Shown here: in pieces, positions 11,564-54,693 of the stretch
How the letters are laid out: each line of letters opens with the position of its first letter
Numbering within the stretch: the first letter of the stretch is position 1
Origin: an uncultured Pelagibacteraceae bacterium
GTDB lineage: Bacteria > Pseudomonadota > Alphaproteobacteria > Pelagibacterales > Pelagibacteraceae
Assembly: GCA_902567685.1 (NCBI GenBank)
Contig: CACFNH010000002.1
Location: 62,001-126,000 of the forward strand
Reading direction: 5' to 3'
DNA: 64,000 bases
Notes under the pieces: model-generated
Databases searched by the model: none
Told to the model about the DNA's origin: nothing
Seen by the model: only the letters and a program-made list of their open reading frames with translations
Translations under genes and position numbers: made by a program

Positions 11564-11581
11564 GAATTTTCAAAATTTAAC

Positions 11582-11637
11582 CGGGCATTTGAACTGTATT
11601 GTACGCCTGACATTTTGTCGAAGTACTAAAAAGGAGG
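11582..11637 (+). ncRNA. SAM-V riboswitch element overlapping the metY ribosome site
   Basis: After the terminator comes a second compact element: GGC (11584-11586) can pair with GCC (11605-11607), then a spacer hairpin GACATTTTGTC, then AAGTACTAAAAAGGAGG running into the Shine-Dalgarno of metY. This matches the SAM-V class described from marine SAR11-type bacteria, a SAM-II relative whose 3' pseudoknot strand abuts the ribosome site. It would block translation when SAM is bound. Identification is by motif memory; a covariance-model match would settle it. Confidence 0.8.
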
Positions 11638-11643
11638 AGAAAA

Positions 11644-48155: not shown

Positions 48156-49083
48156 AACCTAATGATTCCATTAACTCATTCCATTCTCGTTTAGAAAGTC
48201 CAGAATCTTCAAACTTACAATTTTCACCTTTTATCATTTTCTTTACTACTGACTTTCCTTTAGCGGATAGTTCCATTGCTCCAACTCTATAATCCATAAA
48301 AGCCTCATATGTTGTTGGAACCCATCTTTTTAAAGAATCTGTCATTACATCGGCGTAAGCTCTAATTTCGTATTGAGCGTGGCCATCCGCTCTTAATGAT
48401 AAAAAGTTGAGAAGATTTAACAAATCAGTTTTCCAGTACCATTGTGTATATGCATTCAATGTCAAATTCATTCTAGCTAATTCTCTGGCTAATCCCTGTT
48501 TTTTTTCGTCTATTACACTACCGTCATACTTTTCATTCAACATCTTCTCGTAATCATCATAATTTTTTTGGGCATCCTCTTTAAGCATAGTGAGAATTTC
48601 ATCTGCCTGCTTTCCGTTAATTAATGCCCCTCGTCCCTGACGATTATCTTTTGATTGCGCTGCCAAGTGTTCTTTTTCTGGAATATAGAATTCTTTATCA
48701 AGGATAGAATATCTAGCTGAGTATTCATTCACATTAGCAGTTCTATGTCTTATCCATTGTCGTGCTACAAAAATCGGAAGTTTGACATGATATTTTATTT
48801 CACACATTTCAAAAGGAGTGCTGTGTCTATGCCTCATCAAATATTTAATTAAGCCACTGTCAGTTGAAACTTTCTTAGTTCCTTTTCCATATGAAACTCT
48901 GGCTGATTGAACAATAGAAGTATCATCGCCCATATAGTCTACTACTCTGACAAAACCGTGATCTAACACGGGCAAGGCTTCATACAAAATTTTTTCTAAT
49001 TCAGGGGATGTAACTCTTTTAGTTACGTTTTCTTGAGATTGTTGGTCTATTATTTCTTGTTTTTGTTCTTTTGTAAGCTTCAT
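48136..49083 (-). CDS. thyX: Flavin-dependent thymidylate synthase
   Basis: A 315-residue ThyX. The signature [15 protein letters not shown] contains the RHRxxSxNExSxR-type motif used to bind FAD and dUMP. It makes dTMP using methylene-THF and NAD(P)H, replacing ThyA. About 70 residues longer than the shortest ThyX proteins, with N- and C-terminal extensions. The 3' end overlaps mrp convergently by 20 bases. It lies just upstream of the tmRNA gene on the opposite strand. Confidence 0.94.
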
Positions 49084-49097
49084 TTTGAATTAATTTA

Positions 49098-49125
49098 TTG
49101 AATCTCTGAAAACAAGTTTTATATT
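49098..49125 (+). promoter_or_regulatory. Candidate promoter of the tmRNA gene
   Basis: TTGAAT at 49098-49103 and TATATT at 49120-49125 with a 16-bp spacer; TATTAT two bases later gives 18 bp. The start would fall near 49132, just before the first stem of the acceptor piece. Assigned by eye. Confidence 0.5.
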
Positions 49126-49304
49126 ATTAGCGTTGGTTTTCCAACTATAACGATAAACGAATTTCGTAATAAACATTACGGACGTGGGGGCAGTACCCAC
49201 CACCTCCACCATTTACAACTTGAGGGGGTGAACTAGGATCGACGGGTGTCTAAAGGCTATTCTTTCGTTCGAGATAGTTCCGACGTAACGGGCTACTTAT
49301 AAAT

Positions 49305-49334
49305 GCAAATAATAAATTTGCACTTGCTGCTTAA
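49305..49334 (+). other. tmRNA proteolysis-tag reading frame
   Basis: The resume codon GCA at 49305 opens the frame ANNKFALAA followed by TAA. With the alanine carried by the tmRNA the tag is 10 residues. The ALAA end is the ClpXP/ClpAP degron. It is short compared with tags such as the 11-residue E. coli one. The stop is directly followed by a self-complementary stem (49330-49339 with 49342-49351). Confidence 0.82.
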
Positions 49335-49358
49335 TTAACTTGTTAATTAAGTGAACGG

Positions 49359-49389
49359 GGTTTGGGGCACCTGGCAACAGAACGCCCCT
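49359..49389 (+). repeat. tmRNA 3'-end repeat, copy 1 (resident att site)
   Basis: A 31-bp segment forming the 3' end of the tmRNA coding piece, with core GGCACCTGGCAACAGAACG. The GGGG/CCCC arms fold as the terminal tmRNA helix. It recurs exactly at 51477-51507 and with changes at 51706 and 52302. This is the copy attached to the intact tmRNA, so it is read as the living integration site. Confidence 0.85.
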
Positions 49390-49434
49390 GCGTATTGGCG
49401 TTAACACTTATTAATTCACAACTTTTTTTAATTA

Positions 49435-49453
49435 GATCACAATACGATCACAC
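49435..49453 (+). repeat. 19-bp direct repeat flanking the accessory operon, left copy
   Basis: GATCACAATACGATCACAC, itself two GATCAC units 11 bp apart. The identical 19 bp occur in the same orientation at 51404-51422, on the far side of the three-gene operon. It could be a recombinase arm site or a regulator operator. Confidence 0.75.
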
Positions 49454-49485
49454 TGAAGAAAGACAAACTTGGAGTGCGGGGGAAT

Positions 49486-49899
49486 TTAATCTAAAACTTG
49501 GCCAGTTTTATTTTGTTCAAAATAATCTATTAAAAAAAAAGCCATCTTTTGTCCTTTTATTTTATGTTTTTTATCGAAAACAAAACTTAATGTTTGAGGA
49601 TAAACTAAAGCACTTGCAGCTACCCAATGGTTTCTAACTACTTGGCCGGCTCCGTTAACAGATAGATCATGGTACTTTTTCTTCATAATCTTTTTAGTTA
49701 TCTTGTATTTTTTAATAATAGGTTGATTATTTTTATCTTCAAAAGCTAATTCTATTAAATCATCTATTGCTTTTTCTTTTTCTCTAGATTTCTTAAACAT
49801 TGAATTCATATCAAAATCCATTGATACATCAGATAGAACTCGACTGATCTTAACTAACTTAGTTGATTTTTTTATACTCCTAAATATTCCAAAAACCAT
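49486..49899 (-). CDS. Unknown protein, third gene of the accessory operon
   Basis: A 137-residue basic protein that I do not recognise. It starts MVFGIFRSIKKSTKLVKISRVL, has a Lys-rich middle (KKYKITKKIMKKKYHD) and a hydrophobic patch VNGAGQVVRNHWVAASALVYPQTL. The frame is open 19 codons further up, but the ATG at 49899 overlaps the stop of the preceding gene (TAATG), which marks it as the coupled start. Its 3' end lies about 100 bases from the tmRNA end. It lies inside the first repeat-bounded segment. Confidence 0.6.
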   Translation of the reverse strand: MVFGIFRSIKKSTKLVKISRVLSDVSMDFDMNSMFKKSREKEKAIDDLIELAFEDKNNQPIIKKYKITKKIMKKKYHDLSVNGAGQVVRNHWVAASALVYPQTLSFVFDKKHKIKGQKMAFFLIDYFEQNKTGQVLD

Positions 49900-50183
49900 T
49901 ATTTGCTTGGCCCCCAAATTTTTCCACCCCAAAGATAACTTAAATGAACATAGCACATTCTAAAAGAAAATAATCCACCAATTAATAACAAATAATATAC
50001 CCAAGTACTTTCAGCCCAGCTAATTGCGAGCCAAATCAGACCTACTCCAAGAATGAGATCGATAATCGCCCATGCTATCATTGTCCATTTAGGGAATGAT
50101 TGTCTTAAATCTTTTTTATCTCCGGACCAATAAACCTTTTTAGTATAATCTCTTGTTGAGTATTGGTTTTTTCTTTTTTTCAT
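49899..50183 (-). CDS. Small two-helix membrane protein in accessory operon
   Basis: A 94-residue protein with a charged N-terminus (MKKRKNQYSTRDYTKK) and two hydrophobic helices (about 36-56 and 62-82), ending WGGKIWGPSK. Its ATG overlaps the stop of the DUF3883 gene (ATGA) and its stop overlaps the next start (TAATG), so all three genes are translationally coupled. It has no family I can name. A membrane partner for the DUF3883 protein is possible but not shown. Confidence 0.62.
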   Translation of the reverse strand: MKKRKNQYSTRDYTKKVYWSGDKKDLRQSFPKWTMIAWAIIDLILGVGLIWLAISWAESTWVYYLLLIGGLFSFRMCYVHLSYLWGGKIWGPSK

Positions 50184-51376
50184 GATCTAAAATCTAAATT
50201 CAACGTCACTAAATCTATATTAAATTCTCCCTGCATTTTTTCAAATAAATTTAAAATTTTATCGAAATTAGCTACATCTTTTAGCTTTTCACTTGGGTTT
50301 TTAATCACTTCAATTTTTGCTTTAGTTAGTGCGTTCGTCACTAAATATATGTTGAATTTTTCTCTATTTTTTTTATTTAACATTGCAATAATTTCATTTT
50401 TTGTTAAGTCGATATCATTAATCGTTTTTCCCGAAGATGATTTAACCTCAATGAATATCTCCTCTCCTTTTTCGTTGTATGAGGTTATATCGTAGCCTGG
50501 TTTTTCGTTTAACTCTGCATGCCATTTAACTTTATTTGAAAGGTCTTTTAAACCAATTTTATTTAATTTATCTTTTTCATACTCAAAAACAATTTTCTCA
50601 CCTTTTCGACCTATAAAAGCTGAACGATCGCTCCTCCTCTTTTTTTGTTTTATTTTTTTGCTTTTTTTAGTTTTAGCATTTGTTTTTTTTTTCGGCGTTC
50701 TATTTTCAAAAGTCTTTATTTTTAAATCTTGATCTTGAAACTTAATTGGGTCTGCAACTGCGTTAACTAAACTATCAATGGATGGTGTTAGAGGATTTTC
50801 ATGAATCTCAACATAAAATTCTAACATCTTTTTGAAATCATTAATAAGTTCGTTATCTTCAGGCAAATTATCTATTTCATAAGACAAACTGAATATTGCT
50901 GATTGTTCATAGCCCTCTTGTCTAAATTCTTTTGGAGTGGCTGTTAAATCAATAGGATCTAACGTTAAGTTTTCAATATCAAGATCATTTTCAAAAACCT
51001 TTTGAATACGAGATGCTGCTTTTCTCATTTTAGAATAAGCTTCTTTTTTTGGAGAAAAAACTTCTAAAAATTGCCCGGTACCAAAAGCAATTGAAAGGTG
51101 AACTTTTTTTAGATCAACTGAATATAAATAGACTAAAGAATAACCTTCGCTTTGTTTATCTGCTAATCTAACATCTCTTGCGCTTATCCATGGAGCATAT
51201 GGGACCCTTTGTACTCCTTTAGTAGCTTTAATCTTTATATAATCTTTGTGATCGGAGTTAGATACAATACCTCCGAGAATGTTAGTTATCTTTTTATAAA
51301 TTTCATCTACGTTATTTGTCTTATTTTTAAAAAAAGCAGGCCACTCTTTTGAAAGGCTTTGAAGTTCTTCTCTCAT
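50180..51376 (-). CDS. McrB-N-terminal-like plus DUF3883 protein (possible defence)
   Basis: A 398-residue protein. The N-terminal half (about 30-190) resembles the MrcB_N/DUF3578 domain found at the N-terminus of McrB-like restriction proteins (VPYAPWISARDVRLADKQSEGYSLVYLYSVD, then LSIAFGTGQFLE). A Lys-rich linker (KKKTNAKTKKSKKIKQKKRR) leads to a DUF3883-like domain with GRKGEKIVFEYEKDKLN and DITSYNEKGEEIFIEVKSS, whose E-x-K core resembles a restriction-endonuclease-type fold. No AAA+ GTPase is present. The frame runs up to a GTG at 51409 through the GATCAC repeats; the ATG at 51376 is preferred. A nuclease or defence role is inferred. Confidence 0.7.
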   Translation of the reverse strand: MREELQSLSKEWPAFFKNKTNNVDEIYKKITNILGGIVSNSDHKDYIKIKATKGVQRVPYAPWISARDVRLADKQSEGYSLVYLYSVDLKKVHLSIAFGTGQFLEVFSPKKEAYSKMRKAASRIQKVFENDLDIENLTLDPIDLTATPKEFRQEGYEQSAIFSLSYEIDNLPEDNELINDFKKMLEFYVEIHENPLTPSIDSLVNAVADPIKFQDQDLKIKTFENRTPKKKTNAKTKKSKKIKQKKRRSDRSAFIGRKGEKIVFEYEKDKLNKIGLKDLSNKVKWHAELNEKPGYDITSYNEKGEEIFIEVKSSSGKTINDIDLTKNEIIAMLNKKNREKFNIYLVTNALTKAKIEVIKNPSEKLKDVANFDKILNLFEKMQGEFNIDLVTLNLDFRS

Positions 51377-51403
51377 GATCACACCATATCCGGACTCACT
51401 GGC

Positions 51404-51422
51404 GATCACAATACGATCACAC
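51404..51422 (+). repeat. 19-bp direct repeat flanking the accessory operon, right copy
   Basis: Identical to 49435-49453. With a further GATCACAC at 51377-51384, three GATCAC units lie within 46 bp around the 5' end of the DUF3883 gene, an arrangement that suits a protein-binding operator or recombinase arm sites. Confidence 0.75.
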
Positions 51423-51476
51423 CCAGCAAAGAAATAGGCGTTTTTTATGATCTAGAATTATTGTATAACGTTAAAA

Positions 51477-51507
51477 GGTTTGGGGCACCTGGCAACAGAA
51501 CGCCCCT
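51477..51507 (+). repeat. tmRNA 3'-end repeat, copy 2 (exact)
   Basis: All 31 bases match 49359-49389, and identity stops sharply on both sides (ACGGGG against TTAAAA upstream, G against T downstream). It has no tmRNA sequence in front of it. It closes a 2.1-kb segment with the three-gene operon. Confidence 0.85.
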
Positions 51508-51523
51508 TATGATAATTAAAATA

Positions 51524-51706
51524 ATGAAAAAAAATAATTCAAGAAAAGTTAAGATTTGGGGATTAGTTTCTGTTATTTGGTTTTTGATTGTTTATGCAGC
51601 AACTATGACTGGTAGTTCTTATTCTAAAGATACAGCTGCTTTTATTTGGTTAGCTTTGATACCCTTAGCAATAGGATGGGGGATCTATTTTATTAAGAAA
51701 AATTAG
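51524..51706 (+). CDS. 60-residue two-helix membrane protein between att repeats
   Basis: Starts MKKNNSRKVK; hydrophobic helices cover about residues 12-28 and 38-55, with a short loop TMTGSSYSKDTA between. It is not recognised. An upstream in-frame ATG at 51509 (MIIKI) is the alternative; the longer frame reaching back to 51359 runs through the repeat and is not used. The TAG stop (51704-51706) shares its last base with repeat copy 3. The gene fills nearly the whole 200-bp segment between copies 2 and 3. Confidence 0.6.
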   Translation: MKKNNSRKVKIWGLVSVIWFLIVYAATMTGSSYSKDTAAFIWLALIPLAIGWGIYFIKKN

Positions 51707-51729
51707 GCACCTAGCAACAGAACGCCCCT
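51706..51729 (+). repeat. tmRNA 3'-end repeat, copy 3 (one change)
   Basis: Twenty-four bases match the core with one substitution (CCTAGC for CCTGGC); the left GGTTTGG part is lost. The right arm GAACGCCCCT is intact. Confidence 0.8.
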
Positions 51730-51817
51730 AAAAAATCAACTAATCTTTTAAGTTTTTTTGGTCGCAGTGACAATCTAAAGGGTTAAATTAATAAATTTTT
51801 AATAATATTTTTAGAGC

Positions 51818-52246
51818 ATGTATAAGTTGATTTTAAAAATAACATTAATCTTATTTTTTATTTACCCTGCTCACAGCGCAGATCAAACCATAGAAATGGT
51901 TAATAGATTGGGAAAAGAGATTAATGTTTATTCCAAAAAACTTGTCAATGTTAATGTGGGTAATACTGTTTTTTGGAAATCAGTAAATCCTGGCCATAAT
52001 GTAGAATTCATAAAAGGTGGGGTTCCTGCTGGTGTGGAAAAATTCAAGTCTCCATATAGTAAGGATACAAGCTATACATTTAAAATTCCTGGAATTTATG
52101 CTTATTGGTGTACGCCTCACAAAAGTATGGGGATGATAGGTTTCGTCGTCGTAGGTAATGACAAGTCAAATCTAGAAGCAATTAAAAAAATTAAATTTTA
52201 CGGTGTATCAAAAAGAGTCGCTGAAGAAATAATAAGTTCTTTGTAA
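51818..52246 (+). CDS. Pseudoazurin-like periplasmic copper protein
   Basis: A 142-residue protein with a signal peptide (about 1-20, ending HSA). The mature part is a single-domain cupredoxin with type 1 copper ligands: His in PGHNVEF, Cys and His in YWCTPHKSMG, and Met in the same loop. The VNPGHNV and GIYAYWCTPHKSMGMIGFVVVG blocks are typical of pseudoazurin. It would shuttle electrons in the periplasm; the partner is not evident here. It lies between tmRNA repeat copies 3 and 4 and so may be imported cargo. Confidence 0.88.
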   Translation: MYKLILKITLILFFIYPAHSADQTIEMVNRLGKEINVYSKKLVNVNVGNTVFWKSVNPGHNVEFIKGGVPAGVEKFKSPYSKDTSYTFKIPGIYAYWCTPHKSMGMIGFVVVGNDKSNLEAIKKIKFYGVSKRVAEEIISSL

Positions 52247-52301
52247 ATTTTATTATACTGTTTTTAATTCAAATTATTCCCAAATAATGGTATAAAGTCT
52301 A

Positions 52302-52323
52302 GGGCACCTGGCAATAGAACGCC
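52302..52323 (+). repeat. tmRNA 3'-end repeat, copy 4 (most decayed)
   Basis: Twenty-two bases align with the core, with one internal change (GCAATAG for GCAACAG). The right arm is degraded (GCCTTT for GCCCCT). It is the copy furthest from the tmRNA. Confidence 0.72.
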
Positions 52324-52344
52324 TTTCTTAATTTAATCTTTAGA

Positions 52345-52794
52345 ATGAAAGCATATAAAATAATTAAATCTAATATTCATCGAAAAGGTCTTTGTGCTGC
52401 TCGTGATATAAAAAAAGGAGAAAGAATAATTCAATACAAAGGAAAAAGAATCACCCACAAAAAAGCTGATGAGGATCCTAAGTATAGATATGATATCACT
52501 TATTTGTTTACACTTAATAAAAAGTATCTTTTAGATGGAGATTTTAAATTTAATGTTGCTCGACTGATGAACCATTCGTGCAATCCTAATTGTGAAGTTC
52601 TTGATGAAAGTAAGTCTGTCATATGGATTACCGCTATGAAAGATATCAAAAAAAATGAGGAATTATCATATGATTATGGATTTAGTTATGATTGTAACTA
52701 TAAAGATCATGTTTGTAAGTGTGGATCTGAAAATTGTGTTGGCTTTATTGTTAGAGAAGGTTCTCGATGGCGGATAACTAAAAATAAATTCTAA
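52345..52794 (+). CDS. SET-domain protein lysine methyltransferase
   Basis: A 149-residue protein consisting almost only of a SET domain. SAM- and substrate-binding motifs are visible: HRKGLCAARDIKKGERIIQY, RLMNHSCNPNCE (about 73-84) and ELSYDYGF (about 105-112). A post-SET Cys cluster CKCGSENCVG follows, which binds zinc together with the Cys in SCNPNC. Bacterial SET proteins methylate lysines on proteins; the target here is unknown. It starts 22 bp after repeat copy 4, so it may be the oldest cargo or the first resident gene. Confidence 0.87.
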   Translation: MKAYKIIKSNIHRKGLCAARDIKKGERIIQYKGKRITHKKADEDPKYRYDITYLFTLNKKYLLDGDFKFNVARLMNHSCNPNCEVLDESKSVIWITAMKDIKKNEELSYDYGFSYDCNYKDHVCKCGSENCVGFIVREGSRWRITKNKF

Positions 52795-52871
52795 AAAATA
52801 TATTTGTCTCCTAAATAAATCAAAAGACCTACTGCGATACCTATGAGAAGCCAATAATAAATTTCTTTCAT
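52791..52871 (-). CDS. 26-residue single-helix membrane peptide
   Basis: Reads MKEIYYWLLIGIAVGLLIYL then GDKYIF and TAG. One hydrophobic helix covers most of it. The ATG comes one base after the TAA of the MazG-like gene (TAAAATG), which suggests translational coupling; its stop overlaps the SET gene's stop on the other strand. Being so short it is a tentative call. Confidence 0.4.
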   Translation of the reverse strand: MKEIYYWLLIGIAVGLLIYLGDKYIF

Positions 52872-52872
52872 T

Positions 52873-53244
52873 TTAATAGATATATTTACTAAGATTGGGT
52901 TTAAAATATTTTGGTCCTTTCATTACTTTTCCTTTGTCGTTAAAAATTGGTTTACCATCATCTCCTAACTTACTCATATTTGAATTTTGAACTTCTTCAA
53001 AACACTTATCTAGATCTATGCCAAAAGCATGTCCGGCTCCATACGTAACATAAAGTATATCAGTCAAAGCATCTGCGACTTCTTTGATATCTTTCTTTTC
53101 AATTGCCTGCTTAAATTCTTCTAATTCTTCCCTGATTAAATCTAATCGTAAATTAACTATTTTTTCCTCTGGAAATTCAGCTTTATTTTTAACTTCTTGA
53201 CCAAAAGTTTGCATAAATTTTTTTACACTTTGAAAGTTACTCAT
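52873..53244 (-). CDS. MazG-like nucleotide pyrophosphohydrolase
   Basis: A 123-residue all-alpha pyrophosphohydrolase (MazG/HisE-like). The metal-binding acidic motifs are visible: [15 protein letters not shown] (about 30-44) and [17 protein letters not shown] (about 55-71). The C-terminal [13 protein letters not shown]...G.V.KGP.YF.P is characteristic of this subfamily. It would hydrolyse non-canonical NTPs or dNTPs; the substrate is not determined. Divergent from fumC. Confidence 0.85.
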
Positions 53245-53261
53245 TTTTCCTCAATTCTAAT

Positions 53262-53289
53262 TTGTTTTATAATAAATAGGGTGTATTAT
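53262..53289 (+). promoter_or_regulatory. Candidate fumC promoter
   Basis: TTGTTT (53262-53267) and TATTAT (53284-53289) with a 16-bp spacer, 15 bp before the chosen ATG at 53305. A TATAAT also occurs at 53268. Weak call by eye. Confidence 0.3.
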
Positions 53290-53304
53290 ACCCTAGAATC
53301 ATTA

Positions 53305-54693
<1,389 letters not shown>

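Follow-up and report, generated by a model that had tools for sequence, protein, structure and literature searches.

Integron arrays are built of single- or few-gene units whose sites lie in one orientation and which join at one end, and the phage attachment site (attP) of lambda type consists of a core with arm sites on both sides. Islands in the genes for transfer RNA (tRNA) and transfer-messenger RNA (tmRNA) that carry a tyrosine integrase restore their target and leave a displaced fragment of it at the far end, according to the part of the Islander account used here (PMC4383910). The sections on Dehalococcoides strain VS in a second report (PMC2764846) describe 11 direct repeats of ssrA downstream of that gene, with similar sequence around each, and a vcr island of about 11 kb in which the genes next to ssrA encode a putative integrase and two further recombination proteins. 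In Candidatus Methylopumilus the additive flexible island fGI-2, as the relevant section of its description has it, contains repeats of the last 20 nt of tRNA-Lys, measures 330 bp to 42 kb and holds 1-63 genes, mostly of unknown function and including azurin (PMC10872708); the same section gives, at second hand, a size of 4-200 kb for tycheposons and a tyrosine recombinase gene in those of Methylophilaceae. The principle of tandem islands marked by tRNA or tmRNA repeats is thus already known. Here we describe an array of much smaller units behind the tmRNA gene of an uncultured member of the Pelagibacteraceae (SAR11), in a 64,000-nucleotide stretch of contig CACFNH010000002.1 (positions 62,001 to 126,000), hereafter the window, and in its relatives. 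We consider it probable that the tmRNA 3' end of this family is an attachment site that captures very small, recombinase-free cassettes by means of a tyrosine recombinase acting in trans.

The tmRNA gene of the window and the repeats that follow it are arranged as follows:

49094..49392, plus strand: permuted (two-piece) alpha-type tmRNA gene, the proposed attachment target (RF01849, 218.4 bits; ARAGORN tag ANNKFALAA)
49359..49389, plus strand: repeat copy 1, GGTTTGGGGCACCTGGCAACAGAACGCCCCT, the functional 3' end of the coding half (core GGCACC... at 49366-49386)
51477..51507, plus strand: repeat copy 2, 31 bp, with no difference from copy 1
51706..51729, plus strand: repeat copy 3, one mismatch within the 21-base core GGCACCTGGCAACAGAACGCC
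52303..52323, plus strand: repeat copy 4, one mismatch within the same core

A first-pass annotation had proposed an exact recurrence of the 31-bp tmRNA end at 51477-51507, two shorter and altered copies beyond it, and one orientation for all four. The identity of the two GGTTTGGGGCACCTGGCAACAGAACGCCCCT copies, the single core mismatch in each of the shorter ones (copy 4 beginning at 52303) and the position of all four on the plus strand bear this out. That the repeated piece is the end of the tmRNA gene holds for the 3' end of the gene as such, although it is the end of the coding (mRNA-like) half and not the CCA end, the tRNA-like CCA part lying upstream within the permuted gene. On both strands of the window these four are the only matches with up to five mismatches, and 20 mononucleotide shuffles of 48600-54500 gave none. 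The assembly to which the window belongs (G000, a SAR11-type genome, 82% complete) contains the same four copies and no others with up to three mismatches.

We sampled 151 genomes of the window's genus, 12 of them near-complete. The 21-base core is present with at most three mismatches in 122 of the 151 and in all 12 near-complete genomes, and a reversed control pattern has no match in the 151. The tmRNA locus was analysed in the window and in 98 further instances. Of 118 genomes in which RF01849 was matched, 19 had been left out (contig ends or fragments for the most part), and two loci holding a second-site cassette and no tmRNA (L072 and L073) had been removed before counting. The locus is closed, in the sense that mazG or fumC is reached, in 84 of these 99; the other 15 stand outside the counts for closed loci. 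The tmRNA is the first copy in every one of the 99 loci. Displaced copies, called at up to five mismatches to the core, number 193 across 75 loci (one to seven per locus), lie between thyX-tmRNA on one side and mazG-fumC on the other, and are without exception in the sense of the tmRNA; none was found upstream of the tmRNA, beyond mazG or in antisense in 1.546 Mb. Counting the tmRNA itself, closed loci contain one copy in 18 cases, two in 22, three in 15, four in 14, five in 7, six in 4, seven in 3 and eight in 1, and the distance from the tmRNA core to mazG varies from 102 to 13,401 bp (median 3162).

The segments so delimited are small: their median length is 793 bp, 64 of the 193 do not exceed 500 bp and 185 do not exceed 3000 bp. 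Mostly they contain one to three open reading frames (ORFs). Their cargo is mostly private, 211 of 292 ORF clusters being confined to one locus, although these counts take in some non-genes because ORFs of at least 45 residues were called mechanically. Among the matches listed, the cargo includes restriction-modification and other candidate defence proteins, methyltransferases and assorted enzymes; these functions are a sample, because the tables for mixed query sets give the 25 commonest Pfam and PADLOC families, and the sets concerned (A1-A3, 240 of 273 representatives) are packed unrelated proteins, not real alignments. A single-gene cassette of about 409 bp encoding a DUF2784 protein is found at various ranks in 14 loci. 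Exceptional among the arrays is L063 (G048:C1), whose first insert after the tmRNA measures 7880 bp and encodes about 14 ORFs, among them a serine resolvase.

In three of the 84 closed loci (L175, L190 and L191) the site is empty: the interval from the tmRNA core to mazG measures 102-103 bp, and CCT(T/A)AAAA(G/A)ATATATTTATC... comes immediately after the tmRNA end, with mazG 81-82 bp past the core. The arrays of L066, L167, L035 and L145 have this junction sequence behind their final displaced copy, and in the window a related sequence is found at position 52795, past a SET-domain gene. The ancestral order was therefore tmRNA-mazG, and DNA has been added at the tmRNA end. Further DNA lies between the last copy and mazG in 75 of the 84 closed loci, which we read as older inserts that have lost recognisable end copies. 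The earlier view of the tmRNA end as a landing pad for a tandem series of very small insertions gains support from these empty sites, from the cargo, which differs between copies in relatives, and from the copy number, which ranges from no to seven displaced copies per closed locus. Within the genus the copies lie mostly at the tmRNA locus, apart from a second-site cassette in at least six genomes and a single tRNA-Thr array.

The same annotation had treated the array as pieces bounded by repeats. The repeats do bound segments, but many of these have, in addition, conserved attP-like ends with paired arm sites. End clustering placed 83 of the 193 segments in one large right-end family, and the left-end families have members with different cargo. 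Words common to the arm regions of both ends include GATCACAATA, GGACTCAC, GGGCACA, TCGTAATCTACTCGTA and GGGCGGAGCT, among others; in many cassettes of the main right-end family they match within a cassette and differ between cassettes. Across the 82 cassettes of that family whose body measures 300 bp or more, the longest word shared by the two ends averages 8.11, against 6.91 (standard deviation 0.19) when right ends are redealt within their subtype, and none of 2000 such shuffles reaches 8.11. End words in bodies under about 300 bp were dropped as an artefact of overlapping windows. The arm sites have a period of 11 bp at left ends and of 23 and 11 bp at right ends. ORFs in arm-type cassettes point towards the tmRNA in 155 of 178 cases, as against 78 of 145 in other segments, and the last ORF of such a cassette, if on the minus strand, usually starts 55-125 bp before the next core. 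It is possible, judging from this start position, that the cassette right end doubles as a leader for the cargo. A circularised cassette would read right arms, core, left arms, which is the plan of a lambda-type attP. The sequences show that DNA was inserted at the tmRNA end, that some sites are empty and that cassettes have ends in common with paired arm sites; from this we infer the chemistry, the circular form and the helper.

The position of strand exchange may be narrowed from the copies themselves. Displaced copies keep GGCACCTGGCAACAGAACGCCCC, and the sequence to its left is in many of them that of the cassette (TTAAG, TTCAC, GTCCGG) and not that of the tmRNA. In one genome (G060) tRNA-Thr(UGU) has a cassette array at its 3' end, with the sequence ...GTGTGAGGGCACCAGACAACAGAACGTCCCT; in two other genomes unrelated sequence follows this tRNA. 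Only GGGCACC(A) is shared, so the right part of the core came with the cassette and exchange would have taken place in or beside GGGCACC; the exact position of the crossover is put forward provisionally. The tRNA-Thr array (L232, G060:C1:113000-132000) contains many tandem paralogues of a protein of about 196 residues with a signal-like N-terminus. We rejected tRNA-Thr as a common second site: 10 of the 151 genomes matched, G060 alone exactly, and the other matches are tmRNA-locus cores (G125, G128), one ambiguous case (G081) and six that look like plain tRNA ends before AT-rich sequence.

We propose the following course of events. An active cassette could circularise, and would consist of right arm sites, a conserved right end, the core, a conserved left end, left arm sites and about one to four cargo genes. 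A tyrosine recombinase supplied in trans would exchange strands in or beside GGGCACC, the core of the cassette would restore the tmRNA end, and the old end would shift downstream as a displaced copy; in the window, the newest insert would thereby restore the gene at 49094..49392. Repeated capture would give a polar array, with new cassettes beside the tmRNA and older, decaying ones further out. The decay of the copies is consistent with such a polarity: the mean number of mismatches at ranks 1 to 7 is 0.89, 1.38, 1.21, 1.95, 2.91, 1.6 and 2 (Spearman 0.315, p 8e-6), comparison of the first with the last displaced copy favours the first in 24 loci, with 16 ties (sign test p 0.007), and arm-type cassettes are enriched at the first place (43 of 75 first segments versus 40 of 118 later ones, p 0.0017). 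The helper would most likely be an integrase that binds arm sites and belongs to a phage, or to another kind of mobile element, absent from these genomes.

The arrays examined contain no recombinase match other than the serine resolvase of the 7.9-kb insert in L063; resolvases are rare, with matches in two of the 151 genomes. Tyrosine recombinases (PF00589) were matched in 107 of the 151 genomes, nearly always once per genome, and none of the matches listed lies on a tmRNA-bearing contig, a comparison made by eye that a very divergent one could escape. Pattern scans of viral contigs did not find a cassette-type attP, nor did a blastn comparison of the predicted attP with phage records. Eight viral contigs with an exact core (L074-L081) were discarded as helpers, since they carry whole permuted phage tmRNA genes with the tag ADENLALAA; phage tmRNAs of this kind are already known, as the part of the Melnitz report used here describes (PMC9004378). 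Host integrases at 10 loci, some in the same genome (eight phage-type PF00589 proteins and two serine recombinases), have no core with up to six mismatches within 3-4 kb and were likewise set aside.

The sole PF00589 match is in most cases a recombinase resident in the Pelagibacteraceae, an Xer/Cre-like protein of 306-325 residues that scores about 66-82 bits, far below the XerC/XerD cut-offs of 330-335. Were it the enzyme, the locus would resemble an integron that keeps its integrase gene at another place on the chromosome, which we regard as unlikely. The protein is strongly conserved in the family, and in the sister family, where matches are weak (best E 8.9e-14), a second core is found in 1 of 53 genomes, one core in 39 and none in 13, although the core pattern performs poorly at diverged copies there; across the order it is matched in 216 of 247 genomes, 46 of which are weak matches among those 53. 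This contrast between families is, however, a single event. The match to Cre begins at residue 19-20, which leaves no room for an arm-binding domain, yet the cassettes carry arm sites. Sister-family genomes that lack an orthologue still have displaced tmRNA ends in two of the eight loci read (L306 and L308, the core pattern being weak there), one of them forming a filled and empty pair with L304 within one genus, and on this ground we prefer a helper integrase. In addition, the near-complete G134 has an array and no match to the resident protein, which may be a gap. The protein may simply be an Xer substitute, and replacement of XerC/XerD by it is possible. A single divergent recombinase of this kind is the rule in Pelagibacteraceae (for example L296, which is G000:C4, L085 and L095), many sister-family genomes having two weak matches; its neighbours at three loci are glycosyltransferase-like by eye. 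A single-sequence AlphaFold model of it (mean predicted local distance difference test score 31) was not used.

Trans-acting capture also has to be weighed against the absence of any current site-specific recombination, old insertions having been redistributed among strains by homologous recombination across flanks and repeats. The conserved flanks and repeats would permit this, and some arrays have common runs of neighbours, for example L043 and L187. Of 105 pairs of full-length cassettes from different genomes, however, 94 are more alike than whichever of the flanking genes mazG, fumC, thyX and uvrD are present for both hosts, so the cassettes move. In the clearest pairs cassette identity reaches up to 99.6% where the flanks are 76-84% identical: one pair of 251 bp is 99.6% identical against 75.9% for the flanking genes, and another of 1332 bp is 99.2% identical against 82.3%, standing at rank 5 of 6 in one array and rank 1 of 5 in the other. 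Cassettes have therefore evidently moved recently between lineages. Shuffling of old insertions does not readily account for near-identical cassettes at different ranks, among different neighbours and in hosts whose flanking genes are about 80% identical, nor for arm sites that match within cassettes or an array at another locus, tRNA-Thr; we judge it improbable as the whole explanation. Homologous recombination very probably adds to the mixing of cassettes.

Beyond the genus, the core is found in 257 of 297 genomes and in 13 of 14 genera of Pelagibacteraceae, in many of them as the tmRNA alone. Genus g2 also has arrays (L246-L250), and the one-contig, 99% complete genome G153 of genus g4 has the tmRNA and a single displaced copy 2.3 kb further on (L251). 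The right-end pattern is found in 34 stretches of the genome collection, every one of which bears the title Pelagibacteraceae or Candidatus Pelagibacter. Genus g4 also has cores away from the tmRNA, mostly single and just past protein genes (L234, L243, L235, L244, L236, L240 and L241). A 272-bp cassette encoding a 71-residue ORF lies near tRNA-Leu(TAA) in at least six genomes (L072, L073 and L238; also G006, G105 and G111), and this ORF is also present in tmRNA arrays.

That the repeats are a hairpin, terminator or other dispersed element which merely resembles the tmRNA end is very improbable. GGGGC...GCCCC is able to pair, and the single cores past protein genes in g4 would suit such an element, but only 41 of the 193 displaced copies keep all five stem pairs, T residues in the 10 nt after displaced copies average 4.6, little above the 4.3 after the tmRNA, and the copies in the genus lie chiefly in line behind the tmRNA. 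An assembly or amplification artefact is scarcely credible: the named records with the right-end pattern are mostly single-cell assemblies, as we take their AG- names to mean, yet the same frame and cassette ends recur in dozens of genomes and the one-contig G153 has its displaced copy.

Several observations weigh against capture by a trans-acting integrase. Cassette circles and excision were not observed, and the genomes, viral contigs and phage records yielded neither a recombinase of matching specificity nor a phage attP. Decay does not follow rank strictly, the first displaced copy being worse than the last in eight loci; 110 of the 193 segments do not belong to the main right-end family, and among the 82 cassettes tested several have only AT-rich words in common. 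Eleven of the 105 cassette pairs are no more alike than the flanking genes, and these pairs share members and hence are not independent. A native displaced tRNA-Thr end was not seen within 19 kb in G060, nor was a repeat copy found after the SET gene of the window.

In the window, the segments between the copies and their flanks are as follows:

49390..51476: cassette 1 body, attP-type ends around three minus-strand genes (left-end family 0, right-end family 0), 2118 bp from start to start
49391..49434, plus strand: conserved left end GCGTATTGGCGTTAACACTTATTAATTCACAAC..., present in 28 of the 151 genomes
49435..49456, plus strand: left arm sites GATCACAATAC-GATCACACTGA, in tandem with an 11-bp step
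49486..49956, minus strand: 156-residue ORF from GTG, no match in Pfam, PHROG or PADLOC
49899..50183, minus strand: 94-residue ORF, membrane-like by eye, no family match
50180..51409, minus strand: 409-residue protein with MrcB_N and NOV_C, partial matches to the PADLOC models PDC-S36, TmtA and PD-T4-1
51377..51424, plus strand: right arm sites GATCACACC, GGACTCACTGGC, GATCACAATAC and GATCACACCC
51429..51476, plus strand: conserved right end AAGAAATAGGCGTTTTTTATGATCTAGAATTATTGTATAACGTTAAAA, common to cassettes with other cargo
51508..51705, plus strand: cassette 2 body (222 bp in length as a cassette), one 59-residue ORF from the ATG at 51527 whose stop overlaps copy 3
51730..52302, plus strand: cassette 3 body (597 bp as a cassette), pseudoazurin-like gene at 51818-52246 (PF00127)
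52345..52794, plus strand: SET-domain gene (PF00856), between copy 4 and the old junction
52795..52872: ancestral downstream flank, which follows the tmRNA end directly in empty-site genomes
52873..53244, minus strand: mazG-like gene (PF01503), the conserved right border of the locus

The cargo is as first described, namely a three-gene minus-strand unit (156, 94 and 409 residues), the 59-residue ORF and a protein of the plastocyanin/azurin family (PF00127). The MrcB_N and NOV_C protein of cassette 1 is likely to function in defence, by its family matches. A full-length relative of cassette 3 is found in L052. We regard the SET-domain gene as older accessory DNA, and after mazG fumC is conserved. 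Elsewhere in the window, at 11574-11639, there is a SAM-V riboswitch, which is ordinary for the SAR11-type group.

SAR11 bacteria are very common in the ocean and have streamlined genomes, yet strains differ in accessory genes. A single chromosomal site at which the order of insertion can partly be read explains a set of these gains and losses and reveals genes that have moved recently, and the array could act as a rough log of the turnover of defence-like genes in each lineage. The paired arm codes predict one integrase per code somewhere in the SAR11 mobile pool, and its discovery would name the vector. More tentatively, the cassettes may be minimal mobile units: attP modules of about 200 bp whose arm codes are exchangeable, with a load of one to a few accessory genes (some of them defence-like) and no recombinase, which trans-acting integrases of several arm specificities direct to the tmRNA end throughout the family. 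If so, very abundant ocean bacteria would practise an integron-like, family-wide exchange of genes at one locus.

Among known systems, the SAR11 array is like an integron in its small units, the single orientation of its sites and the addition of new units at one end (with exceptions in rank), but has no intI beside it, its sites are not paired hairpins (the stem is kept in 41 of 193), and attP-like arms are present. A large subset, the 82 cassettes tested, has the lambda-type plan of a core flanked by repeated arm sites with the same code on both sides, although these cassettes lack an integrase gene. With tycheposons, whose definition reaches us at second hand, it shares the placement of cargo units at RNA genes and a streamlined marine host, and differs in its median segment of 793 bp and the lack of a recombinase. 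We do not claim membership in integrons or tycheposons. The first-pass annotation had called such an array unusual. As to its kind, there is precedent in the 11 ssrA repeats of Dehalococcoides VS (PMC2764846, in the sections drawn on); among the open-licence papers searched we found no report of such small cassettes that lack an integrase, bear arm sites and stand at a permuted tmRNA in SAR11. To the extent that the consulted sections describe them, the Dehalococcoides islands are similar in their streamlined genome, tandem ssrA 3'-end repeats with traces of sequence and strain-specific cargo, whereas the SAR11 arrays have far smaller segments, paired arm sites, a permuted gene and an alphaproteobacterial host family, and lack a tyrosine recombinase and a block of recombination genes beside ssrA. 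The fGI-2 of Methylopumilus likewise joins small additive units, including azurin cargo, in streamlined aquatic bacteria, but uses another target gene in another phylum, and the section concerned does not mention arm sites or polarity. In common with tRNA and tmRNA islands as described for Islander, the SAR11 locus has a restored target, displaced 3' fragments and empty sites in relatives; those are usually one integrase-bearing island, whereas here there are several units with no tyrosine integrase gene. The SAR11 array would work like site-specific islands reduced to attP and cargo.

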